Assembly (NCBI GenBank): GCA_028284225.1
Contig: JANQSD010000008.1
Location: 1-64,000 of the forward strand
Direction: 5' to 3'
DNA: 64,000 bases
DNA from: Arenicellales bacterium
GTDB lineage: Bacteria > Pseudomonadota > Gammaproteobacteria > Arenicellales > JAHEKD01
Part shown: positions 16,657 to 33,288 of the stretch, in pieces
How positions within the stretch are numbered: the stretch's first letter is position 1
Layout: each line of letters opens with the position of its first letter
Translations under genes and position numbers: made by a program
Notes under the pieces: generated by a model
The model's database searches: none
What the model saw: the letters and a program-made list of their open reading frames with translations, nothing else
Told to the model about the DNA's origin: nothing

Positions 16657-17009
16657 GGGGGCGACTGGCTTCGACGTGAGTCGCGAAACCATCGGAGCAT
16701 GCCGAGGTGCAGAGTTCCTCGTAAATCCAACTGCAAACTATTAGTTGCCAACGACGACAACTACGCTCTAGCAGCTTAAGCTAGGCCCTTGTCTCCGTCT
16801 TGCCTGCGTGGTGGATGTACAAGGTCAAACAGCAGGACCGCGTTGCAACCTGTCTGTGATTACAACGTTAAACTTAAGGCAGACTCGCTGCTCAAAGCGC
16901 TAGTCTAACAGCGCTGACACAGTTAAAAACTAAAGGCTTAGACTAAGCATGTAGTCGCCGATGAGCGTAGGGCTGACGGACGCGGGTTCGATCCCCGCCG
17001 CCTCCACCA
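16657..17009 (+). ncRNA. ssrA: tmRNA (transfer-messenger RNA)
   Basis: It starts with the conserved GGGGGCGACTGGCTTCGACG and ends with a tRNA-like T-arm GGTTCGATCCCCGCC and CCTCCACCA, 353 nt in all. The tag reading frame starts at the GCC resume codon at 16747-16749 and gives A-N-D-D-N-Y-A-L-A-A then TAA at 16777-16779. It rescues stalled ribosomes and tags the product for proteolysis. Its 3' end is the attachment site of the mobile element that follows; the 3' end is restored, so the gene remains whole. Confidence 0.97.
16987..17001 (+). other. Left attachment core (attL) in ssrA
   Basis: TTCGATCCCCGCCGC, part of the tmRNA T-arm and acceptor, recurs exactly at 33377-33391. The integrase gene starts 196 bp to the right. 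This is the standard arrangement for tmRNA-targeted integrative elements. Confidence 0.88.
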
Positions 17010-17120
17010 ACCAACCCTCCAATGCAATTCCAAATAGTTCATTTTATCTATTAAAAACATGCACTTATACGTATTTTATCAGTATTTTTGATCCATCTAA
17101 ATTCGTTAAAGTTCGTCTAG

Positions 17121-17180
17121 ATACCCTTTTTTTGAGGGTATTTATAAGGGTGTTCTTCATGTAGAATATACAGATACCCT
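17121..17180. promoter_or_regulatory. Candidate arm-type integrase sites, left end
   Basis: Four copies of a 7-mer occur between attL and the integrase start: ATACCCT at 17121 and 17174 (inverted) and AGGGTAT/AGGGTGT at 17135 and 17147 (direct). The same 7-mer is clustered inside the right end at 33292-33322. They may bind the integrase arm domain or the AlpA-type excision factor, and may also control int expression. Confidence 0.55.
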
Positions 17181-17197
17181 CAATTTAAATAACTTAT

Positions 17198-18439
17198 ATG
17201 AAGAGGCGATTAACCGATACAGCTGTCAAAAATGCCAAGCTCAAAGAAGGCAAATCACAGACTAAATATACCGATGGTGGTGGGCTATATCTCCTGGTAA
17301 CTAAAACAGGTAAATACTGGCGCTTTAATTATCGTTTTAACGGTAAATTTAAAACCCTTGCCTTAGGTGTTTATCCTGATATTAGTTTGAAGCGGGCCAG
17401 AAATGCTCATGAGGCAGCCAGGGATAAGTTGCTTGATAACATCGACCCCAGTTTTCAAAGGAAAATTAAAAAATTATCTTTTAGAGAAAGCTCAGATAAT
17501 TCATTTGAAATGGTTGCACGGGAATGGTACGAGCGGTTTCTCGACACCTGGTCGACCAGTCACGCAAAGCGACTGATTAGCAGGCTTGAGAATGATGTCT
17601 TTCCATGGCTAGGATCAAGACCAATAAATGAAATTGAACCACCAGAGATTCTAGCTGTAATGGAACGAGTGCATTCCAGAGGTGCGTTGGAATCCGCTCA
17701 TCGTGTACGGCATGTCTGTGGTCAGGTTTTTCGATATGCCATTGCGACTGGTCGTGCCAAACGGGATCAGACAGCCGATTTACGTGGTGCCCTACCCCCT
17801 GTAAGAAAAAATCACTTTGCCGCAATCAAAAGCCCGGAAGAGCTTAGAGCCTTAATCCTTGCTATCGATTCTTACAGAGGCACTTTTATTGTGAGATGTG
17901 CGCTACAAATCTCAGCATTAGTAATGCTCCGGCCAGGTGAATTACGTCAAGCACAATGGGATGAAATTAATTTCCAAAAAACAACCTGGACTATCCCAGT
18001 GAGTCGAATGAAGGCACGTAAAACCACAAAAGAACTCAATCAAACCACTCATATTGTTCCCTTAAGCTCACAAGCAGTGAATATATTCAAAGAGCTCCAC
18101 CCATTAACTGGTCACTTTCCATACGTTTTTACAGGTGCACGAAACCGGTATAGGCCAATGAGTGAAAATGCTGTGAATGGAGCGCTGCGGTCGATGGGTT
18201 TCACTAATGATCAAATGACAGCGCATGGTTTCAGAGCCACTGCTTCAACGTTTTTGAATGAAATGGGTTTCAACCCTGATGCTATTGAAGCTCAACTTGC
18301 CCATAAAGACAAAAACGAAATCAGAGCAGCCTACAACCGAGCTCAATATCTCGATGAAAGAAGAACCATGTTACAAGCTTGGGCTGACTATCTTGACTCA
18401 ATGAGGTCTGAAAATGAACTACAACACAATAAAATTTAA
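17198..18439 (+). CDS. int: Tyrosine integrase (P4 type, DUF4102 N-terminal domain)
   Basis: A 413-aa site-specific recombinase. Residues 1-85 form the DUF4102 arm-binding domain (LTDTAVKNAKLKEGKSQTKY, YWRFNYRFNGKFKTLALG). A SAM-like core-binding domain follows at ~100-190. The catalytic domain shows Arg in LVMLRPGELRQAQW, His-x-x-Arg in TAHGFRATASTFLN, and the Tyr nucleophile in AAYNRAQYLDERR. It would catalyse integration and excision at ssrA. Its position next to attL is typical. Complete length, no sign of damage. Confidence 0.95.
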   Translation: MKRRLTDTAVKNAKLKEGKSQTKYTDGGGLYLLVTKTGKYWRFNYRFNGKFKTLALGVYPDISLKRARNAHEAARDKLLDNIDPSFQRKIKKLSFRESSDNSFEMVAREWYERFLDTWSTSHAKRLISRLENDVFPWLGSRPINEIEPPEILAVMERVHSRGALESAHRVRHVCGQVFRYAIATGRAKRDQTADLRGALPPVRKNHFAAIKSPEELRALILAIDSYRGTFIVRCALQISALVMLRPGELRQAQWDEINFQKTTWTIPVSRMKARKTTKELNQTTHIVPLSSQAVNIFKELHPLTGHFPYVFTGARNRYRPMSENAVNGALRSMGFTNDQMTAHGFRATASTFLNEMGFNPDAIEAQLAHKDKNEIRAAYNRAQYLDERRTMLQAWADYLDSMRSENELQHNKI

Positions 18440-21055: not shown

Positions 21056-22843
21056 ATGATTGCATTTGACCGTTTATTCGATTGGACGTTTTCCCTGGCG
21101 GTAAATTACCTCAATTTGATATCGCAATCAGCCCTGGATGAGTTCAATCTGCCACACTTCTCGTTAATCATCGGTGGAAGTTGGCTGTTAGTGTTTGTAT
21201 TTTGGTTTGGCAAACATGCCTTACAGGCTCCTGAGAGCTCAAAACTGTATCGAACACTGAAATCACTCGGTGATTTAACTCTCACGGTAGTATTCCTGTT
21301 TCTCGTAGGCACTTTAGGGGTTTGCTACCTTGTTTACATCCAACATGCCAGAAAAGACTGGCTGTTAGAATGGATGATGGTCTACCTGGCCAAACCATTC
21401 ATTACGACTTCTATTGGTCTCACAATCGTAGGTCTGATACTGGCATGGATAGCCGTTCGATACTGGATTCCTAAGATCAATCATTGGCTCAATGAGCGAA
21501 TCACTAAAAAGAGTTATCAAGATGCAGGCATTAGTGATATTCGCAACATTGATGATCTCATCCCCAAGACGTTCGATTATGATCCGACTCAATATTGGAA
21601 ATTATCAAAAAGTCAAATGTTTATCGGTCTTGACCCAAACTTAAAGCCCATCTATATCCCTTTACCCGAATGGAAAACTCAGCATCAACAAGTATTGGGT
21701 ACAACGGGATTTGGAAAAGGCATCGCTGTTACCAATCAACTCAGTCAATGTCTAGGATTCGGACAAACTGCCATTGTCTTTGACCCGAAGCATGATGAGT
21801 GGGCACCCTCGGTTTTAATCCAAACTGCCAAACAACTGGGTAAACCTGTTTGTATCATTGATCTGAATGCCAATCAACCGCAATTTAATCCGCTTCATGG
21901 TGCTGATGAATTTGAACTATTTGATTTACTGGTCGGCGCATTCGGACTGGCCGAACGTGGTGCTGAGTCAGATTATTACCGTTCCAAAGAACGACGTGTG
22001 GTTCAACAATGGATTGAACCGCTTAAACACGGTGTTTCACTGATCGAATATGCAAATTCCCTCACAGAGGCGGATTTTGATAATGCGCCGAAGTTATGTA
22101 ATGACCTGACAGAATTGGCCATGTTAGGTTGCATTAATACCGCTCAGCAAGGCTACTGGCAAGATGTCATGGATCAGGGTGGCTTGATCTATATCATCGG
22201 CTCAGTGCGACGTGAGCCGGTTTTACGTCTTCAAAAAATGCTATTGCTGCGTATCCTACAGCGATTGGAGCAACGAAATCGCTCGTTAGCGCATACTCAC
22301 GTCACCCTATTTCTGGATGAGTTGAAATACTTGTTATGTAAACCTTCATTGCAGGCTTTGGGCACTATTCGTGATAGATCTGCCAATATTATTCTGGCGC
22401 ATCAGTCTATAAATGATCTTCGAGATGTCTCGGATGACCTTGATCCCGAAGCCGTAAAATCGGCCGTACTGGAGAACACTGCGCTCAAGCTGATTTATCG
22501 CTCACAAGACCCGGAAACAGCTGAATGGATTGCCAAACGATCCGGCACCATAAAAGCACACCGGGAAATCAGGGAACTGACACGAAATGAAGGATTTTCT
22601 GAATTGACTCACGGTAATCGGCGCCTACAGGAAATGCAGCGTTACTTGATCGAGCCGAATATGATCTTAAGACTGCCGAAACGATGTGGCATCTGGTTTT
22701 CCAATGAACCCTCTGAGATCGTGCTGACCAGCCCGATTAAAGCCAATAAATCAGACATTGCTCCAACGATTGTTAATTCAGAATCGGAGATAAAAAATAA
22801 AAACACTACCTTCAAATCCAACGGCTTGGATTATTTCACATGA
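21056..22843 (+). CDS. Type IV coupling protein (TraD/TraG/MobB-like ATPase)
   Basis: A 595-aa membrane ATPase. Three or four hydrophobic segments lie in the first 135 residues (for example SLIIGGSWLLVFVFWFG, LTLTVVFLFLVGTLGVCYLVY). Then come a Walker A LGTTGFGKG near 220, Walker B VTLFLDEL near 420 and the sensor-type AHQSINDLRDV. Coupling proteins link the relaxosome to the host or helper type IV secretion channel. It overlaps the next gene by 4 bp. CloDF13-type plasmids pair such an ATPase (MobB) with a MOB-C relaxase, the same arrangement as here. No secretion-channel genes are present, so the element would borrow one. Confidence 0.87.
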   Translation: MIAFDRLFDWTFSLAVNYLNLISQSALDEFNLPHFSLIIGGSWLLVFVFWFGKHALQAPESSKLYRTLKSLGDLTLTVVFLFLVGTLGVCYLVYIQHARKDWLLEWMMVYLAKPFITTSIGLTIVGLILAWIAVRYWIPKINHWLNERITKKSYQDAGISDIRNIDDLIPKTFDYDPTQYWKLSKSQMFIGLDPNLKPIYIPLPEWKTQHQQVLGTTGFGKGIAVTNQLSQCLGFGQTAIVFDPKHDEWAPSVLIQTAKQLGKPVCIIDLNANQPQFNPLHGADEFELFDLLVGAFGLAERGAESDYYRSKERRVVQQWIEPLKHGVSLIEYANSLTEADFDNAPKLCNDLTELAMLGCINTAQQGYWQDVMDQGGLIYIIGSVRREPVLRLQKMLLLRILQRLEQRNRSLAHTHVTLFLDELKYLLCKPSLQALGTIRDRSANIILAHQSINDLRDVSDDLDPEAVKSAVLENTALKLIYRSQDPETAEWIAKRSGTIKAHREIRELTRNEGFSELTHGNRRLQEMQRYLIEPNMILRLPKRCGIWFSNEPSEIVLTSPIKANKSDIAPTIVNSESEIKNKNTTFKSNGLDYFT

Positions 22844-23644: not shown

Positions 23645-24745
23645 TCATCCATCTCTTTGTAAAAATTCAGACGAAGGAGTAGTTGAATATATAAATAATG
23701 TAAAACCCATAAAAATTGTGAGTAAAGTAGTAAGAACGATTTGTAAAACGGCTTCTAGAAAGGGTAGTGTGTCGAATAAATAATAGTAAGTTATCTCAAT
23801 TGACATGATTGAGAGGACTAACAAAAAACTTAGTATTAATATTATTATTATCTTAAATTTTGACTTGATTTGATGATTTTTATTCCATTTAATACAAAGC
23901 AAACATATGAATAATGGTAAATATGGAAACAAGATTCTTCGATTTTTTTCTACTTGAAGAGCATATTGTTCATTGTGACTCATTTCTTCAAATTCATTAA
24001 TATTAGTTTGCAAGTTTAATTCGCTAAAAGTGTACTGTAATACATTAAATTTTGACAATTTTAAGAAATTATTCAGAACCTCAGGGGTAACGATAGTTGT
24101 CCACTGCCCTAGATCAGATCTAACTATACTATCAATATATCCATAACCAGACAGGATTTGGAAAATACCTTCCAAATTCCATGTGTTTCCAGAGCTGTAA
24201 TACGCACGCTTAGAATGAACGACTGAACGTAAAGATCTGTCTGAATCGTATTCGAATACAGTGATGCCCTCCATTTCATTCTCATCTATAATGCTAGAGA
24301 CTCTAATATGGCTATGCTCTTCTGTTATAATAATACCTAAATCATCATCTACAAATATCGTTGGAGTATGACTTTCATTTTTTAAGTAAGTTGATATTAA
24401 ATCTTGTTGAAGAAGCTTCTCTGACATTGGCAAAATTATTTCTTGAAACAATAATATAAGAGTTGAAAAGAATCCAAAAAAAATAAGATTATGAATGAAT
24501 AGTCTTAATGAAATAAGTCTGTCTTTTAATGCATTAATTAGATTTTCTTTAATATACTTAGAAAATAGAATTAAAGACATTAGAGGAAGCAAAAAGTAAA
24601 GATATCGAGGAAAAGAAAAAACCACATAGCTACAAATATTATAGATATTAAAAGTGATTCCGTGATATCTATTTATAAATTGTGCGTATACAATCAGAAT
24701 AGTTAGAATTATTACTGTCAGACTAGACCATATATATCTTTTCAT
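23645..24745 (-). CDS. LptF/LptG-like permease, highly diverged, within the TIR-rich island
   Basis: A 366-aa membrane protein with the LptG plan. Three N-terminal membrane segments (residues ~6-25, 40-60, 85-105) come first. A periplasmic jelly-roll part follows with the LptG-style wording HIRVSSIIDENEMEGITVFEYDS then a W-L motif (NTWNLEGI). Three C-terminal segments (~275-365) close it. LptF/G normally export lipopolysaccharide with LptB. Here there is no LptB partner; the gene follows the TIR-STAND gene after 14 bp in one operon. It may be a membrane effector or target mimic of that NTPase. The LptG relation is my reading of the pattern; function is unknown. Confidence 0.65.
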   Translation of the reverse strand: MKRYIWSSLTVIILTILIVYAQFINRYHGITFNIYNICSYVVFSFPRYLYFLLPLMSLILFSKYIKENLINALKDRLISLRLFIHNLIFFGFFSTLILLFQEIILPMSEKLLQQDLISTYLKNESHTPTIFVDDDLGIIITEEHSHIRVSSIIDENEMEGITVFEYDSDRSLRSVVHSKRAYYSSGNTWNLEGIFQILSGYGYIDSIVRSDLGQWTTIVTPEVLNNFLKLSKFNVLQYTFSELNLQTNINEFEEMSHNEQYALQVEKNRRILFPYLPLFICLLCIKWNKNHQIKSKFKIIIILILSFLLVLSIMSIEITYYYLFDTLPFLEAVLQIVLTTLLTIFMGFTLFIYSTTPSSEFLQRDG

Positions 24746-24759
24746 TTCAAAATCTGAAT

Positions 24760-26835
24760 TTAATCAACAGTCGAAGAAGGATAATTTTCTTTATCATCTG
24801 CTAGTTGCTCGTATAAAAGTGACATTTGAGTTAAATCATATTTAAATTCTTCGATTTGTTCCCATTGAGAAGATTCGAACAATGCTTTGCGGGATTGATC
24901 AATTGCCATTCCAGCAATAATTAACAAAATTATGGCCAGGCCCATCAGGCACATAGTAATACTTTTAATTAATCTATTCTTTTTTGACTTCTCTCTTTCA
25001 TCAGAGTCCATTTTTTGAATGCTGGACTCGATAAATTCAACTTCATTGTAATTTAATAATTCGGAATTCTCCTGCAATAGTTTCCTAGCTTCTAGTAGAT
25101 CATAGTTAGCTAGCAAGAAAACTTCCTTGTTTGATGTATTTTTTGCCCAAGATTTCGATCTATCAAATACCAAATCTAATATTTTTATATATGAAGTAGA
25201 TTGTTGTAACCACGTCTGCAACTTATCCCATTGAGTTAACAGGGTTTCATGGGCAATCTCTATAAAAGTACTCACTTCATTTGTTTCCTCATGAATTTCC
25301 TTGTTGCTAATCATCACAAGTCTTCCAAATTCATCACGACTAAGTTTATCTAAGAGTGCCCATTGATCTTCTTGAAATTCATCCTTAGAAGCAATGCGTC
25401 GAGTACTACCCCCTGTGTCACCAATTTTGGCTAATCGAATGAAGATAGATTTACATAATGATTTTTCAGTGTCTGTTAAAATTTCATAGACAATGTTAGC
25501 TTTTTTAGCAAGCGCGCCAGAGACTTCTCCAATTGATTGATAAGTCTTTAACAAGTCTCCGTTGTATTTGTCCTTTTGAATCCATGTTTGTGAAAGTGCG
25601 AACTCCATTAAGGCTAGATCAGAGGCTCTATCACTGACATCTTTTATTACTTTATTTGCAAATAAATCAGCATCATTAATTCCAGCTAGCATTAGAGGAT
25701 TTACGATAGCCTTGTGCAGACTATTATTATCCATCCGCCTTACTAAATACTTACATTTTTGTGAAAACTTATAAAATTCTTCATATGATGAACATAGATT
25801 GTAGTAATCTCTTCGCATTGTAATCACAATTTTTATGTTAAGAACGCCAGTATCTTCTGTAAGCTTAACTAGAAGTTTAAAAAAATCTTCTCTTTCTTGC
25901 TCATCTTTAACTTGAGTGAAAATTTCTTCGAACTGATCAATTACTATTAATAACCTATCATTGTTAGTAAATGGATATTTGATCATCTCTACAATTTCAC
26001 GTGAATTTTTGTTAGCGTCATTTAGTGTTGAACCAATATATGACGCGTCTTTAGGAGTTATATTAAATTGAATTTTTGATTTTTGAATTATTGCCTCTGT
26101 TAGCCTAAGAAAGGGGGAATTAAATGGTTTAAACTCAATAAATTGCCAATTTTTGATGTAAGACCTATTTTCTGAAAAATCATCTTCTAATCTTCCATTT
26201 TCATATAAAGGTATTAATCCTGCTTTCACAAGAGAAGACTTCCCTGCCCCACTGTCTCCGTATACCATGAGTAATTTATTGTTTTTCAGTAAATCGATTA
26301 GTTCGGTACTTTCTTTTTCTCTTCCATAAAATAAATGGCTATCGTTTTTAGAAAATGCTCTTAGCCCAACAAATGGGTCCGTAACTAATGGAGCTAGAGA
26401 CTTAGGTTCTTCAAGAATAGTGGAAATTAATTTTTGTAATTCGTCTGGATTATTTAATGGGTCTTTAATCGCATGAAATTGCTTAACAAAACCAGGCAAG
26501 GAAGAACAACTCTGAGCCTCTTTGGAAATGATAGGTATAAATGGATATTCTCCTTCTTCTCTAATTGCCCTCGACAGTGCTAATCGAACTTCTGGTTCTA
26601 CCCATTTAGCCACCCCAGAATGACCGATGTATACAGCAAATGCTGTTGATTCATTATCTAAAATTCTCTCAATTTGATTTTGCCAAGGCCTGCCTGGAAT
26701 TAAATCTGTTATGTCTAACCAAACTTTTAACTTTTTTGTGTGAGCGAGAGGATTATTCTCTATCTTTTCCTTTAAAAACCTCGCTGCTTCGGTGTCGGTA
26801 GATGAGTGGCTTAAGAATAACAATTTATTTTTCAA
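24760..26835 (-). CDS. TIR-STAND NTPase with C-terminal membrane segment (immunity-type sensor)
   Basis: A 691-aa protein. Residues 1-145 are a TIR domain (LLFLSHSSTDTEAARFL; candidate catalytic Glu in KWVEPEVRLAL, E80/E82). Residues ~150-480 are an nSTAND1-type NTPase: PFVGLRAFSKNDSHLFYGRE, Walker A GDSGAGKS at 193-200, Walker B LLIVIDQFEE near 295-304. A helical arm then leads to one membrane segment at ~625-643 and a short tail of ~48 residues. Related STAND proteins usually end in WD40 or TPR sensors; this one ends at the membrane. TIR domains of this kind often cleave NAD+. Likely phage-sensing abortive-infection protein, in operon with the LptG-like gene. Confidence 0.85.
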   Translation of the reverse strand: MKNKLLFLSHSSTDTEAARFLKEKIENNPLAHTKKLKVWLDITDLIPGRPWQNQIERILDNESTAFAVYIGHSGVAKWVEPEVRLALSRAIREEGEYPFIPIISKEAQSCSSLPGFVKQFHAIKDPLNNPDELQKLISTILEEPKSLAPLVTDPFVGLRAFSKNDSHLFYGREKESTELIDLLKNNKLLMVYGDSGAGKSSLVKAGLIPLYENGRLEDDFSENRSYIKNWQFIEFKPFNSPFLRLTEAIIQKSKIQFNITPKDASYIGSTLNDANKNSREIVEMIKYPFTNNDRLLIVIDQFEEIFTQVKDEQEREDFFKLLVKLTEDTGVLNIKIVITMRRDYYNLCSSYEEFYKFSQKCKYLVRRMDNNSLHKAIVNPLMLAGINDADLFANKVIKDVSDRASDLALMEFALSQTWIQKDKYNGDLLKTYQSIGEVSGALAKKANIVYEILTDTEKSLCKSIFIRLAKIGDTGGSTRRIASKDEFQEDQWALLDKLSRDEFGRLVMISNKEIHEETNEVSTFIEIAHETLLTQWDKLQTWLQQSTSYIKILDLVFDRSKSWAKNTSNKEVFLLANYDLLEARKLLQENSELLNYNEVEFIESSIQKMDSDEREKSKKNRLIKSITMCLMGLAIILLIIAGMAIDQSRKALFESSQWEQIEEFKYDLTQMSLLYEQLADDKENYPSSTVD

Positions 26836-26992
26836 TCATAACCCCATAAAATGTTGGTTCTGTTTTTTTATCAAGACATCTAATACCATAGTATAGTTTG
26901 AAATCTTATCAAGGTCATGCTTCAAATGTCGGGTAGAGAGCCATGGATAGTTAATGCAGAATAAATCTAAATAACAAAGGGTTTAGTATAAT

Positions 26993-27703
26993 ATGCAAGC
27001 TTTCTCTTTTAAGTGGTATATGAAAATAAAAATATTTTTCTCCCTAGTTAGCCTGATTTTCCTAACAATCGGAATAAATCTATTTTTCTCAACTATGTTC
27101 AATAAGATAAATAATCTGGATTTCAAATTCCATAATCAAAATAAATTTCTCACATATAGTGAAAAAATTTTAGAAGATATTGAAGATAAAATTAGATCAA
27201 ATATTAGTAAGAGTGGAAAGTATATAATTGATCCAGATTTTCCAGCCACACTGACACTTTATGGATCTAGACGGCGGTGCAAAACAATATTTGAGCATAA
27301 GGCATGTCGATATCAGACTAGTTTCAAATATACTAAACGATATATATCAGACTCCTGTAGAAGTGAAAATAAAAATTGGTGTGTAAAACAAAATCAAAAG
27401 AGATCTGCCATTAGACACAATGTTAGTTATTGGGTTGATTTTAAGGATGATAATGATTTCCCAATTAATGTATTGCATGTTTTGATTTATGATATAGATT
27501 TGGATTATTTAAATCACCCTGATTATGGAATATTCCCTAATAATTATTACAAACCACATGTTAATCACTTTATTTTTAATTGGGGTGATGAAAATTTAGA
27601 TAAATTAATGAACTATCTAAAAAAAGGAATTATGAATAAAACTCAAAAATCTGTGACCGTACATGGGACTACTGAACGGCTTGTAGATCCTAATGAAATT
27701 TAA
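26993..27703 (+). CDS. Single-pass membrane protein of unknown function, island cargo
   Basis: A 236-aa protein with one N-terminal membrane anchor (IKIFFSLVSLIFLTIGINLFF, ~12-32). A soluble part follows with two Cys pairs (RRRCKTIFEHKACRY; SCRSENKNWC), suggesting a disulfide-bonded extracytoplasmic domain. It is divergent from the TIR-STAND gene across a 157-bp promoter region. The sequence is very AT-rich. I recognise no family; association with the TIR-STAND module is only by position. Confidence 0.55.
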   Translation: MQAFSFKWYMKIKIFFSLVSLIFLTIGINLFFSTMFNKINNLDFKFHNQNKFLTYSEKILEDIEDKIRSNISKSGKYIIDPDFPATLTLYGSRRRCKTIFEHKACRYQTSFKYTKRYISDSCRSENKNWCVKQNQKRSAIRHNVSYWVDFKDDNDFPINVLHVLIYDIDLDYLNHPDYGIFPNNYYKPHVNHFIFNWGDENLDKLMNYLKKGIMNKTQKSVTVHGTTERLVDPNEI

Positions 27704-27797
27704 ACCATCATCACTTTAATGGATGTTTGTAATATTACTAATTCAGAACTGGTAATTGGTATAAATATTCAAACCACGCAAAGTTAATAATATTCAG

Positions 27798-28181
27798 TTA
27801 TTCTATTAGCTCGTAAAGTGAATTAAATTCATAACGACTTATGCAATAGCCATCATTTTTCTGTTCATCATTAAAAACCAAATAATCCCCAACTTGATAA
27901 TATGACTTACCTTCTTTTGTAAGAATATAGCCAACATTAAGAGCTTCTTCTGCCCAGACTGGAATTATTTTTACAAATTTTCCATCACTTACTTCTTTAT
28001 AAGATTTTTTAAATACTTCTTGGTCGATCGTATATATCTCCGTACCGTTTTTAACTAACCAATCCCCCTTTTTACATTTTTGCTTTGAACCCCATTTTTC
28101 ATATTCAAAGCCCTCAGTATCAAGATCAAGTTGAACTGCAACTATAAATTTTTCTGCTTTTTTTCGATATTTCTTTAGCAT
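27798..28181 (-). CDS. PGDYG-type small protein paired with patatin
   Basis: A 127-aa soluble protein that resembles the PGDYG family. Two related halves can be seen, GDWLVKNGTEIYTIDQEVFK near 38 and VGDYLVFNDEQKNDGYCISR near 97, each a GD-[WY]-L-V strand followed by a [KR]-x-E/V-F segment. Its start lies 2 bp after the patatin stop codon, so translation is coupled. It may be a modifier, immunity or sensor partner of the phospholipase. No function is established that I know of. Confidence 0.55.
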   Translation of the reverse strand: MLKKYRKKAEKFIVAVQLDLDTEGFEYEKWGSKQKCKKGDWLVKNGTEIYTIDQEVFKKSYKEVSDGKFVKIIPVWAEEALNVGYILTKEGKSYYQVGDYLVFNDEQKNDGYCISRYEFNSLYELIE

Positions 28182-28183
28182 TA

Positions 28184-29347
28184 TTAATTCAGGTTAAAAT
28201 TCAATGGAAAATGAGATGCTTTTATGTCTTTGCTCGACGCAAGTTGACCAAGATGAAATAAAAGTTCCATATTTTCTGGAGCATCAAGAGAAGTTAATGA
28301 TTTAATTTTTTTTAAGTCTTTTATATTTGAATCTAATGATTTGACATAATCAATAGATAAATCTAAATCATACCTGAGATAACTTAGGCCTGCACTCTGC
28401 CCTACAAGATTCTTCGCTAAGTCCCCCAATTCCAAATCAATTGTTTTTGCCGTGGGACTACTCGATAACCATTGTAAAATTGTGTTTTGCAAAACAGAGC
28501 AATCCTCCATCAACGACAATAACGATTTCACTCCATGCTTTGCGGCAAGCACTGAGTTTTGAACAGATAGATCACCCGTACCTGTGCCTATAGAAACTAA
28601 CAAAATTTTATCTTCACCCATCGGCCAATTAATTTTATATCCATCTAAAGTTACATACATCAACGATTGGAGAGCCGGATTATTGAATGGGCTTACGCCG
28701 CCATCTACAAATTCTCCTTGAATAGATTTATGACCCTCCATTCTTTTAATCAATATATTTTGGGGCTCAAAATACCTGGGAGCCGCTGTTGAGGCTCGCA
28801 CGACTTGCCACAAGGGATATTCTTTATTTCCTATGACTCCGTCAGAATTATGATTATAGAACTGCCCAAATGGGTTATTACTTATCGGCCAAGGGCTGCC
28901 AGTATCAAGTCTCTTAGTTATAATCAGAAGCCCGGTTTTCACTAAACTACTGCCGAGAGTCGTATCTGACCCGTAAACCTTCTTCAGCTCTTTAATTAGT
29001 TTTTTCTCATCATATTTTGCCCTAAGGTATCCGTGCCTTAATAAGGATTTCTTGAAAACTGCATGTCCTAATTCAAAATACTTATCAATAATATCATCCA
29101 CTTTCCAATCCAAGGCCAATGCTGCAGCTATAATTGCACCAGTTGATGTTCCTGCGATTAGATCGAAGTAGTGGCTAAGACGAAATTCATCAGAATTACT
29201 ATGCTTACTCTTCAAAATAGTTTCTATGTCTTTTAAAAAGGCTAAGCTTATAACACCGCGCAACCCTCCTCCGTCGAGTGAAAGGATTCGTTTGGGGCCT
29301 CCTGAAGCTTTTAGATGCTGTTTTGTCGAAAGAATTTTGTAACTCAT
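28184..29347 (-). CDS. Patatin-like phospholipase (CapV-type effector candidate)
   Basis: About 387 aa. The patatin fold is clear: oxyanion loop ILSLDGGGLRGV, nucleophile elbow IAGTSTGAII (Ser of GTSTG), and catalytic Asp in EFVDGGVSPFNNPA. No signal peptide or membrane segment is seen. Patatin-like enzymes such as CapV degrade membrane phospholipids in CBASS immunity, but no cyclic-nucleotide synthase lies nearby. Start is uncertain: ATG at 29347 and 29377 and TTG at 29401 are all in frame, none with a strong ribosome site. It is coupled to the small PGDYG-type gene downstream. Enzyme family certain, immune role inferred from neighbours. Confidence 0.85.
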   Translation of the reverse strand: MSYKILSTKQHLKASGGPKRILSLDGGGLRGVISLAFLKDIETILKSKHSNSDEFRLSHYFDLIAGTSTGAIIAAALALDWKVDDIIDKYFELGHAVFKKSLLRHGYLRAKYDEKKLIKELKKVYGSDTTLGSSLVKTGLLIITKRLDTGSPWPISNNPFGQFYNHNSDGVIGNKEYPLWQVVRASTAAPRYFEPQNILIKRMEGHKSIQGEFVDGGVSPFNNPALQSLMYVTLDGYKINWPMGEDKILLVSIGTGTGDLSVQNSVLAAKHGVKSLLSLMEDCSVLQNTILQWLSSSPTAKTIDLELGDLAKNLVGQSAGLSYLRYDLDLSIDYVKSLDSNIKDLKKIKSLTSLDAPENMELLFHLGQLASSKDIKASHFPLNFNLN

Positions 29348-29561
29348 TACTAATCTAATTTTTGAAAATAATTCCATTCTATTGTATACCGCAAACTTCA
29401 ATTAAGTGCATTATGAAAATTTTATATTACTATCTGCTTTACCTTATGAAATTACATTTGTAATAGGGAAGGCAAAGTGTAAAATATAAATTCTTCAGCT
29501 ATTGCGACAAAGTAAATTAATCAGACAAATTAGATATACAGAAAAAATCTAAAGCACATCA

Positions 29562-30830
29562 TTGGAAAAAGAAAATGAAATTAATTTAGAAGGATTAAAA
29601 TTCATAGAGCATAAATATACTGGTTGGCGTGCAGTAGAAGCACAACATAAAGTTGTAACGAGAAGATTGAAAGATTCTCTTGTTGAGCATTTGAACTTAG
29701 AAGAGTTGTTGGATCATAGAACAGTCAGTGAAAGCACATCTTCAAAATTACATTACCTATTGAGCACGCCTTTCAGATATCCACCTCTAAAATACGGATC
29801 CAGATTTGGCACTAGAAAAGAAAAAGGTATCTTTTATGGTTCACTTGATTTATCAACCGCAATGGCAGAAGTGGCGTATTATCGATTTTTATTTATTACA
29901 AGCATATTGAATGAAAACGAGATTTATGGTGATGATAACGCTATCTATACTGATTTTACTTTTTTTAAATTTGAAGTTTCACCTAAGAAATTTGTCAGCT
30001 TAATAAATCCATTTTTCCTTTCCAAACTTAACAAAATATGCTCTCCAACCGATTACAAATATTCCCAAAAATTAGGTAAAACTTTAAAAAAAATGGGTGT
30101 AGATGCAATTTGTTATCCTTCTGCGCGTAACCCACGAGGAGGCTTAGAGACAGCAATTTTTAAACCCGTTTTTTCTACTAACAAACCTTTAAGCTTTAAA
30201 CATATACACTGTAAAACAACCTCAAAATTATGTGAGTTCATTGTGCGAGATGAAAACCAAAGCAATCATTCGTATAAATTTAATATAGAAGACTTTTATT
30301 TTAAAGATGAAATTAGGAGTGTCGAATCAACTCTTGAAACTGTAGATAAGGATCATGACTTTAGTCCGGTTTTAGGACATCTAAGGGTTTTTATATCATA
30401 CAAACGAAGCAATGATCAAATTAGCATATGGGTTAAAAAGTTTTGTGATGATTTGCGTAATTTAGGTATTGACGCAAAGTTAGATAAATACGAAATGAAA
30501 TTTGGTGATTCGGTGTCAAAAAAGATGACAACTTTAATTCGTGAAGCAGACGCATTTATATTCGTTATTACATCTGACTCTGTAACTGTTGCAGATAACC
30601 AAGATGGGAAAGGAGCTTTAAATTATGAGATACAATTAATGAATGATCGCAGAATGAATGAAGGAATTCCAATAATTGGTTTGTTAAAAGACGGAGATAA
30701 ATTACCTGGATTTCTTGCAGATAACAGATATGCTGATTTCAGATCAAATAGAAACTATAAAAATTCATTAGAAGAATTAGTTTCTGATTTACTTGGTAAA
30801 ACTGGCCCACCACCTATTAATGCTAGTTAA
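29562..30830 (+). CDS. RES domain-TIR/SEFIR domain fusion protein
   Basis: A 422-aa protein with two NAD+-linked domain types. Residues ~18-215 match the RES toxin fold: Arg candidates R23 (TGWRAVE) and R81 (YGSRFG), Tyr in GIFYGSLDLST, Glu103 in MAEVAYY, and Ser187 in CYPSARNPRGG. Residues ~273-412 are TIR/SEFIR-like (LRVFISYKRSNDQISIWVKK, DKYEMKFGDSVSKKM, candidate Glu in ALNYEIQLM). RES toxins phosphorolyse or hydrolyse NAD+ and normally pair with a Xre-type antitoxin, which is absent here. The frame opens with TTG at 29562 (MEKENE); the first in-frame ATG candidates lie further in. Stand-alone plus-strand gene. Confidence 0.8.
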   Translation: MEKENEINLEGLKFIEHKYTGWRAVEAQHKVVTRRLKDSLVEHLNLEELLDHRTVSESTSSKLHYLLSTPFRYPPLKYGSRFGTRKEKGIFYGSLDLSTAMAEVAYYRFLFITSILNENEIYGDDNAIYTDFTFFKFEVSPKKFVSLINPFFLSKLNKICSPTDYKYSQKLGKTLKKMGVDAICYPSARNPRGGLETAIFKPVFSTNKPLSFKHIHCKTTSKLCEFIVRDENQSNHSYKFNIEDFYFKDEIRSVESTLETVDKDHDFSPVLGHLRVFISYKRSNDQISIWVKKFCDDLRNLGIDAKLDKYEMKFGDSVSKKMTTLIREADAFIFVITSDSVTVADNQDGKGALNYEIQLMNDRRMNEGIPIIGLLKDGDKLPGFLADNRYADFRSNRNYKNSLEELVSDLLGKTGPPPINAS

Positions 30831-30999
30831 TAATTTGTTCTAACTTAGAATCAAATGTTAAAGACAGCGTTATCATCCTTTTTAGGTAATGGCAACGGCG
30901 AAATGTCAGCGTTAGCAGCATGCATTTCTTACATTCGATACAGTCAATTTGGGAATGGATTATTATCAATGTTAAACAACCTGAGTTAAACAAAAATAT

Positions 31000-31587
31000 T
31001 CATATCCCATATATTCTTGTTTTAGAAGCTATTAGTTCAGCCCTTTTATTAAAAGCCTGATCTATATATTTTTCTGGGCTACTATCAAAATCCTCCCATT
31101 TAACTAGGACACAGTACCTTTCTTCTTCAGTATGAGAACAACTATTATTTGGAATGTAGTAGTTATAACTAAATTCACGAATGACTGTTTCATCATTCAA
31201 TGAAACACAACTATGTGAATTACTACACTTCGAACAAATATAATCACCCTTAAATATTGCGTTTTGCATGATTGGCAACACGACACCAAGAATTCCATTT
31301 TTAGTATTCTCCTTCCCATCATAAAGCGATGCTTGTAACTCTCGCTTAATAAACTTTTGTTGTTGGTAACCTAGGGATTCAGCACTATATAAGCCTATTA
31401 GAAAAATTGTAACAGTTGAATCCGCCAGATGTTCTTCACGTATTTTTCTTAGAATATATTCTTCGTCATCTGAATCAATAGAGTAATTGAGTGATTTATC
31501 AATCATGTCAACTGAAAGTTCATTTTGAATATATGATTTATAAAAATTATCTTCAGTTTTGAAGGAAATAAAACATTTATGGGTCAT
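31000..31587 (-). CDS. ThsB-like TIR-domain protein (DUF1863 type)
   Basis: A 195-aa protein resembling the DUF1863/MTH538 TIR-like family, to which Thoeris ThsB belongs. It starts with KCFISFKTEDNFYKSYIQ, has RKIREEHLADSTVTIFLIG near 48-66 and a following FIKRELQASLYDG (candidate Glu). A later CSKCSNSHSC cluster may bind zinc. ThsB proteins make an NAD-derived signal after phage infection; the ThsA effector is not seen. It follows the TIR-TM-Asp-box gene by 21 bp on the same strand, so they likely work together. Confidence 0.72.
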   Translation of the reverse strand: MTHKCFISFKTEDNFYKSYIQNELSVDMIDKSLNYSIDSDDEEYILRKIREEHLADSTVTIFLIGLYSAESLGYQQQKFIKRELQASLYDGKENTKNGILGVVLPIMQNAIFKGDYICSKCSNSHSCVSLNDETVIREFSYNYYIPNNSCSHTEEERYCVLVKWEDFDSSPEKYIDQAFNKRAELIASKTRIYGI

Positions 31588-31608
31588 GGTTTATAGTGAA
31601 TTTTGATA

Positions 31609-33288
31609 TTATTGTGGAAGATCATGTTTATTTAGAAGCCGATCTAAAATTGATCGTTTACGATAAATAAATACTTTACTAGAAATTTCGCCTGGCAATT
31701 TAAATAATGAAATCACATTTCCGGAATTCGTTATCAGCATATTATCGACCCCAGATCGATTTTTATCAATCTTTGTCCATGTCGATCCGAAATCTTTAGT
31801 TAGCCATATTCCTGAGGAATAAAACTCGTTAACGATCCTTCCCGAAATTCTTCTTGTTTCATTTTCGCCGATTGAAACAACTATTTCATTCGAATTGTAA
31901 TGATTCCAACCTAAATAATTTAAACTATTCCATGTTGCTTCAATATTAATCTCAGGGACTAATTCCCATGACTTTCCGAAATCAGTAGTTCTGGCCAATC
32001 CTCCTGGCAATGGATCAAATGGATCGAACCTTTCTGAAGCCCAAATAAATGTCACACCGTTGGCTTTATTTCCATGCCAAGCTCGAATATCTGTTGAAAA
32101 ATAAATTTCATCTGTTTTATTCCAATTTAGACCACCATCATCTGTAAAAAAAACTGGAAAAGGTGGTCCACTAATATACCCGCGAATTTGAAAACCCTTA
32201 ATTTCATCATATTGGTACTCAAATGACTCAAAATGGTCTTTCTCCATCAATGAATCAGGTAAATTGAAGTTAATTGACTTCCAGTTTTGATGTGATTCAC
32301 CAAATTGCCCTACGATTTCATATATCCTATCCTCGCTTAATCTTTCAAAAGTACCAGATTTATCCACACTATTATTACCTATAAGTTCACTTGTATCTGT
32401 CAAAGAAAATTCTAATTTTCCAAGTATTTGGTCATCTTCTGAAAGTTCTGTTATTTCTACAGACAAATCCTCTCCTTCGTGGCCAGCATCATCACTCCAA
32501 GGCTCTGGCTCTTCTTTGATAATGTAGAAGCTACTTGACTCTGAAATATGTTCTGGAACTTCGATGCTGGTTGCGTTTGATATGTGCTTTGATTGGTGCC
32601 AAGCATGTGTTGGACTGTTGAATATGCGAACTGTAATTAATAAAAAAAAGATTGTGATCAAGATAGTAGTCAGTATCGTATAGTACCTAGAACGCTGTCG
32701 ATCACGTAATTTAAGATCCTCATAATTCAATTCATTACCAAATTTTTCACTTAGAATACTGGACACAAGTCTTAGCATTTCATTTTTAAAATAATACCTG
32801 TCAACGAATATCCATTTTAAAATATTCGAATTTTTCAAAACTCTAAGATCTGCGAATATTGCTCTTGGAACATTCGACTTAATAACTGACGGAATAACAG
32901 ATTCCTTGTCACCTTCAATTAAGGCAATATTCAGAGACTCTTTTTGAGTTTCAACAAAAGAAGTACACTCATTATTCACTGGTTCAGAATTAACAGAATT
33001 ATTACTACATACAATAAGGAAATTTGGTATTGAGTGAATATACTCTTCAAAACTAGCCAAATAGTCATGACTAACACCCTGGTCACTTTTATCTCTAAAA
33101 GCCCTAATTCGTTTGTCTTTTAGGTCTTTTTGGAAAGAACTAGGAAATTTATAGTTTTCTAAAAAATTCTGGATTTTTTTAACTTCCTTCGAATCTTTTG
33201 AACTGTAAGAAATAAAGACATCATACCTCTTACTTTTTTTCTGACTCACAAATTTATACCTTTTATTATTTTTATAAAATGCTACCAC
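31609..33288 (-). CDS. TIR domain-membrane segment-Asp-box (BNR/sortilin-like) protein
   Basis: A 559-aa protein. Residues ~20-190 are a TIR domain (RYDVFISYSSKDSKEVKK, IRAFRDKSD, IPNFLIVCSNNS). One membrane segment follows at ~203-221. The C-terminal ~330 residues would lie outside the cytoplasm. They carry three Asp-box motifs, FTDDGGLNW (381), TTDFGKSW (434) and TKDFGSTW (497), typical of beta-propeller sialidase/sortilin/YCF48-like folds. So a cytoplasmic TIR is joined to an extracytoplasmic propeller, suggesting transmembrane sensing. First gene of a two-gene unit with the ThsB-like protein, close to attR. Confidence 0.78.
   Translation of the reverse strand: MVAFYKNNKRYKFVSQKKSKRYDVFISYSSKDSKEVKKIQNFLENYKFPSSFQKDLKDKRIRAFRDKSDQGVSHDYLASFEEYIHSIPNFLIVCSNNSVNSEPVNNECTSFVETQKESLNIALIEGDKESVIPSVIKSNVPRAIFADLRVLKNSNILKWIFVDRYYFKNEMLRLVSSILSEKFGNELNYEDLKLRDRQRSRYYTILTTILITIFFLLITVRIFNSPTHAWHQSKHISNATSIEVPEHISESSSFYIIKEEPEPWSDDAGHEGEDLSVEITELSEDDQILGKLEFSLTDTSELIGNNSVDKSGTFERLSEDRIYEIVGQFGESHQNWKSINFNLPDSLMEKDHFESFEYQYDEIKGFQIRGYISGPPFPVFFTDDGGLNWNKTDEIYFSTDIRAWHGNKANGVTFIWASERFDPFDPLPGGLARTTDFGKSWELVPEINIEATWNSLNYLGWNHYNSNEIVVSIGENETRRISGRIVNEFYSSGIWLTKDFGSTWTKIDKNRSGVDNMLITNSGNVISLFKLPGEISSKVFIYRKRSILDRLLNKHDLPQ

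Follow-up and report, generated by a model that had tools for sequence, protein, structure and literature searches.

We believe that the gene at positions 29562 to 30830 (+ strand) of the 64,000-nucleotide stretch of Arenicellales DNA analysed here (the window) encodes a real end-to-end fusion, in which a complete NatT-type RES domain is joined to a complete SEFIR-type TIR domain; this conclusion is well supported. An attractive explanation for this RES-TIR protein, to which we assign a probability of roughly 0.4, is that it acts as an inducible NAD(P)-depleting effector within a TIR-rich island, the TIR half serving as the assembly or sensing part and the RES half as the executioner. Since no other copy was found in the collections searched, RES-TIR looks, as far as its sequence can tell us, like a new single-gene growth-arrest device.

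The ORF list gives the protein 422 aa from a TTG start, and the 422-codon frame is free of internal stops, would stay open by chance with a probability of only ~3e-14 at the local base composition, and has codon-position GC values of 0.40/0.33/0.22 that are coding-like in both halves. Pfam places RES at residues 62-207 (E 6e-22) and TIR_2 at residues 276-407 (E 9.5e-15), with a SEFIR match barely over the cut-off, and the best PADLOC match is bSEFIR (E 3e-23), all of which bears out the original prediction that RES and TIR/SEFIR domains share one polypeptide. The RES domain (residues ~1-252; 29562..30317, +) reaches the native C-terminus of NatT, the TIR domain (residues 273-422; 30378..30827, +) stops close to the usual domain end of the SEFIR family, and the ~20 residues that follow the NatT-aligned part and precede the opening strand of the TIR form an interdomain linker with low pLDDT (residues ~253-272; 30318..30377, +). 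The start signals are weak: there is no clear Shine-Dalgarno sequence before the TTG, no in-frame ATG upstream of the RES motif, and no upstream promoter match better than chance. Such signals, together with a single known instance on a long branch and a unique N-to-E change in the active site, would fit an inert or decaying orphan, a one-off recombination fusion inside the island that is poorly translated and functionless. We consider this quite improbable, given a frame of this length and of coding-type composition throughout in AT-rich DNA, and given the retention of catalytic residues in both domains, which decay would be expected to strike as well.

The RES half is 37% identical over its whole length to NatT of Pseudomonas aeruginosa (8qnl; phmmer E 4e-32). 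Residues R23, R81, Y92, E103, Y107, Y165, S187 and R189 correspond to NatT R23, R82, Y93, E104, Y108, Y162, S184 and R186; these eight catalytic, phosphate and RES-glutamate positions are conserved among NatT-type relatives and all are kept in RES-TIR, and most of the NatT residues have been named as active-site or phosphate-binding (PMC11535050). The five on which the RES assignment was originally based (R23, R81, Y92, E103 and S187) are thus all present, in register with NatT R23, R82, Y93, E104 and S184. Modelled alone with AF2 from 59 RES rows, this half reaches a pLDDT of 84.4 and a pTM of 0.82, and Foldseek returns 8qnl first (E 9e-24, TM 0.75/0.79) and MbcT next (E 1.6e-5), so that the predicted fold is that of a NatT-like RES domain; a full-length model from a mixed alignment, in which few RES rows were correctly alignable, gave a poor RES half. 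With a RES fold predicted and the active-site residues aligned, the proposed RES identity therefore holds. Conservation was counted in an alignment with 104 distinct NatT-type proteins, and the RES half departs from the family at 6 of 49 conserved columns. One departure lies in the active site, where NatT N193 is replaced by E196: the relatives have N in 92 cases, C in 8, A in 3 and G in 1, and Glu is unique to RES-TIR. This column is variable among the relatives, so N193 is not strictly defining for NatT-type RES proteins; nonetheless, the unique substitution counts against the effector reading.

The TIR half belongs among the SEFIR-type bacterial TIRs. The structure prediction called for originally yields a TIR fold with good confidence (AF2), matched by Foldseek to the prokaryotic SEFIR 5y8e (probability 1.00) and to the NADases AbTIR and SARM1. 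Residue E356 (30627-30629, +) aligns with a Glu that is invariant in 24 of 24 SEFIRs from viral contigs, and phmmer pairs it with the NYE motif of AbTIR, whose Glu we take to be the AbTIR catalytic residue. Together with bSEFIR as best PADLOC match and the confidently predicted fold, this conserved Glu might be read as the mark of an effector in its own right, a bSEFIR-like SEFIR NADase preceded by a RES domain that is regulatory or ligand-sensing, or else that attacks NAD as well. We regard this as unlikely. The TIR half differs at 12 of 25-28 family-conserved SEFIR columns, against 0-3 in almost every other member, and the conserved active-site surroundings GGVGYE, LDQW and FME are not kept, the GGVGYE loop reading GALNYE; the RES active site is better preserved than that of the TIR. 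From sequence, the TIR half is either a divergent subfamily, which would itself account for such changes, or a domain under changed constraint. The contrast in conservation (12 of 25-28 columns changed in the TIR half versus 6 of 49 in the RES half) is consistent with the RES domain as the constrained enzyme, and because the TIR half is so much more diverged, we lean towards a switch or assembly part over a second NADase. At the same time, since the catalytic-position Glu is kept, the TIR might be an enzyme instead of a switch, and this weighs against the effector model as we have framed it.

How, then, would such a toxin be held in check? The original prediction described RES-TIR as lacking an antitoxin, and no Xre gene lies beside it, where the flanks carry only tiny ORFs in the ORF list. 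This sets it apart from its family. Wherever the sequence ahead of a NatT-type RES gene reaches far enough to tell (~100 relatives), an Xre gene is adjacent upstream: the linkage is seen in 103 of 111 rows and in two further loci (L076 and L085) once their ORF starts are corrected, and the other rows are the window locus itself, present twice, and four loci that run into a contig end short of the Xre position. The description holds only locally, however, because the sole Xre/MbcA/ParS-domain match in the whole genome belongs to an ordinary intact NatRT-like Xre-RES pair on contig 14 (locus L011 of genome G000; 1039-1416 and 1438-2160), a module that sits downstream of a gene for an MscS-like channel. 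The accompanying premise, that a RES toxin needs an Xre-type antitoxin, does not carry over to the flap-bearing subgroup, whose members may be harmless without one: NatT without NatR is reported to be unstable, rapidly degraded and non-toxic, and NatT is switched by its oligomeric state (PMC11535050). A solitary NatT-type toxin is therefore not paradoxical, and need not be lethal.

The contig-14 Xre could act on RES-TIR in trans. In this scenario RES-TIR would be an orphan derived from a NatT-type toxin, still neutralised or stabilised by that Xre, with the TIR adding localisation or oligomerisation. The module is intact, no protein found is closer to the RES half than its RES (47% identity), and its Xre keeps R73 and R122, the equivalents of NatR R70 and R119 at the flap and phosphate pocket. 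The insertion with which NatT docks its antitoxin, the flap (NatT residues 26-66; PMC11535050), is present in RES-TIR (residues 26-65; 29637..29756, +) and retains the acids E26, D38, E42 and E47 as well as Y65 (NatT Y66). That all of the acids that meet the antitoxin are kept points to remaining Xre control, and against the effector model. On the other side stand the flap changes V37K, K53R and P54T (V37K, K54R and P55T in NatT numbering), which fall at otherwise invariant or nearly invariant positions: V37 is found in 102, K54 in 104 and P55 in 103 of the 104 relatives. Among columns conserved at ≥95%, RES-TIR is changed at 3 of the 9 in the flap but at none of the 27 elsewhere (Fisher p 0.012), a test that concerns one protein and a split picked post hoc, and that only suggests that loss of the Xre linkage accompanies change in the flap. 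The pairing is moreover unlinked, which would make a mobile island reliant on the host genome, no operator common to RES-TIR and the contig-14 module was seen beyond AT-rich words, and the sister relation of the two RES domains is not upheld in a careful tree. Overall, we find control in trans somewhat unlikely.

In that tree RES-TIR falls in a clade with the contig-14 RES and relatives from Gemmatimonadota, Myxococcota and Acidobacteriota, away from Pseudomonas NatT, on a branch so long (1.3-1.6 changes per column) that its exact sister is not fixed. A quick tree had paired it with the contig-14 RES (SH-aLRT 88), and as this pairing failed in the careful tree, we make no claim of local duplication. 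NatT-type Xre-RES modules (L035-L072) are common in assemblies of Gemmatimonadota, Acidobacteriota and Myxococcota; such modules have been described as primarily proteobacterial (PMC11535050).

The architecture search proposed for RES beside TIR returned no second case in the genome, viral, plasmid or phage collections searched. Among the best 80 of at least 581 relatives found by searching genome contigs with a NatT-family alignment, none spans a TIR, and this RES scan provides the main coverage of phyla other than the window's own. No second fusion came from the RES-TIR protein as a query against genome contigs, from tblastn against plasmids and phages, or from viral contigs, and none from a protein search of several hundred related genomes, from long frames inspected after a Pfam RES scan of 321 genomes, from 303 genomes scanned with a SEFIR profile, or from TIR loci scanned with a RES profile. 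Several candidates were set aside: a 417-aa RES frame is a HEPN/RES-like protein instead, a 426-aa RES frame is a 248-aa RES ORF with an open extension, and long frames in L076, L083 and L085, which looked like fusions, overlap the Xre gene in a different reading frame. Rare relatives of RES-TIR may exist. In the papers searched, RES-TIR itself is unmentioned and no such pairing is described, in keeping with the original view that none had been characterised; the larger RES architectures described there are those of polymorphic toxins (PMC3482391) and HEPN/RES-NTD1 proteins (PMC3710099). That there is no homologous fusion to show the arrangement being maintained by selection, and that the branch is long, both tell against the effector model.

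TIR domains are classic parts of defence systems, and the island around RES-TIR has the make-up of a defence island. Its left end (16657..18439, +) is formed by a tmRNA gene (16657-17009) and, directly downstream, a tyrosine integrase gene (17198-18439), followed by a gene for a TraG-type coupling protein (21056-22843); a second, directly repeated copy of the tmRNA 3' terminus, which would mark a right-hand att site, was not found within the window. The cargo (23645-33288) has 28-37% GC against 42% for the window. On this AT-rich island beside tmRNA, RES-TIR is accompanied by three other TIR genes and by the gene for a CapV-like lipase. The first TIR gene encodes a TIR-nSTAND1 NTPase (24760..26835, -; nSTAND1 3.6e-90, TIR_2 4.5e-12). 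The lipase gene, divergent from RES-TIR, encodes a patatin-like phospholipase related to CapV of CBASS (28184..29401, -; Pfam and PADLOC). Convergent with RES-TIR is the gene for a ThsB-like TIR protein (31000..31587, -; Pfam ThsB_TIR 9e-8, PADLOC ThsB 1e-14), and beyond it lies that for a TIR protein whose C-terminal region is sortilin/BNR-like (31609..33288, -; Pfam). Among the neighbours scanned there was no SIR2, SLOG or macro match that would represent the Thoeris effector ThsA and no CD-NTase match that would represent CBASS, and no complete named defence system was recognised in the island.

Several of these neighbours deserve comment in their own right. The TIR-nSTAND1 gene is followed after 14 bp by a gene for an LptF/LptG-like permease, apparently in one operon (23645-26835, -); it is curious to see an immune NTPase combined with a relative of LPS-export permeases. 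The CapV-like patatin has a gene for a 127-aa partner 2 bp downstream (27798-29401, -) and might form a two-gene lipase system. The TIR-BNR gene precedes the ThsB-like TIR gene by 21 bp, placing two TIR genes in one operon (31000-33288, -), and the ThsB-like protein has a cysteine-rich stretch and matches phrog_13658 (unknown function; E 9e-76).

Returning to RES-TIR as an inducible effector, the general pathway might run as follows. In an uninfected cell, free RES-TIR would, like NatT lacking NatR, be either unstable or closed. Upon infection, the TIR half would assemble in response to a product of the phage, or to a nucleotide supplied by one of the neighbouring TIR enzymes; it would thereby take over the controlling part held elsewhere by the antitoxin, and assembly would stabilise the protein and open its RES sites. 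The RES half, as executioner, would then cleave NAD+ and NADP+ in the manner of NatT, by phosphorolysis to nicotinamide and ADP-ribose-1-phosphate, and growth of the infected cell would stop. Here we infer NAD(P) consumption by the RES half, its activation through TIR-driven assembly, infection as the trigger and a role in phage defence. In favour of this reading we count the preserved RES active site and NatT-like predicted fold, the joining of two complete domains end to end, the flap changes that accompany the lost Xre linkage, the stronger conservation of the RES half, the reported behaviour of NatT alone, and the TIR-rich surroundings. A more ambitious version can be put forward only tentatively: a self-contained RES effector for which assembly of the TIR stands in for the antitoxin, possibly with two different NAD-attacking sites in one chain, the RES site acting by phosphorolysis and the TIR site by hydrolysis or cyclisation. 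If the effector reading is true, RES-TIR would be a case of an antitoxin-dependent toxin re-wired into a single-gene switch, and its presence in a mobile island rich in TIR genes would link RES NAD phosphorylases with immunity. The authors of the NatRT study argued against the NatT-type RES subgroup serving in phage defence (PMC11535050).

Among known systems, NatT (8qnl/8qnq) is the closest counterpart, sharing homology over the whole RES half, predicted fold, catalytic residues and the flap insertion. It is, however, a single-domain toxin of ~250 aa whose Xre partner, NatR, is encoded immediately ahead of it, whereas RES-TIR has no partner gene, a C-terminal TIR, and the N193 and flap substitutions given above. 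MbcT of Mycobacterium tuberculosis, the RES toxin of P. putida and ParT have in common with it the RES fold and the R/Y/E/S active site, with NAD+ as their substrate, but lack a NatT-type flap (PMC11535050) and have been described in Xre pairs; to MbcT, the similarity of the RES half is only remote, as the Foldseek value shows. On the TIR side, the bSEFIR anti-phage protein (by its profile) and 5y8e share the fold and the catalytic-position Glu, but the bSEFIR protein, of ~410 aa, carries its SEFIR domain near the N-terminus, and RES-TIR, which covers only positions 32-184 of the 412 in the PADLOC profile, carries it C-terminally, behind a fused RES domain and with a diverged loop before the Glu. 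The HEPN/RES-NTD1-RES proteins (PMC3710099) likewise show that RES has been taken up into larger proteins apart from the plain Xre pair; they differ in belonging to another RES subfamily and in having an N-terminal helical/Zn domain and no TIR, and a likely example is the ORF at 1282-2496 of locus L178.
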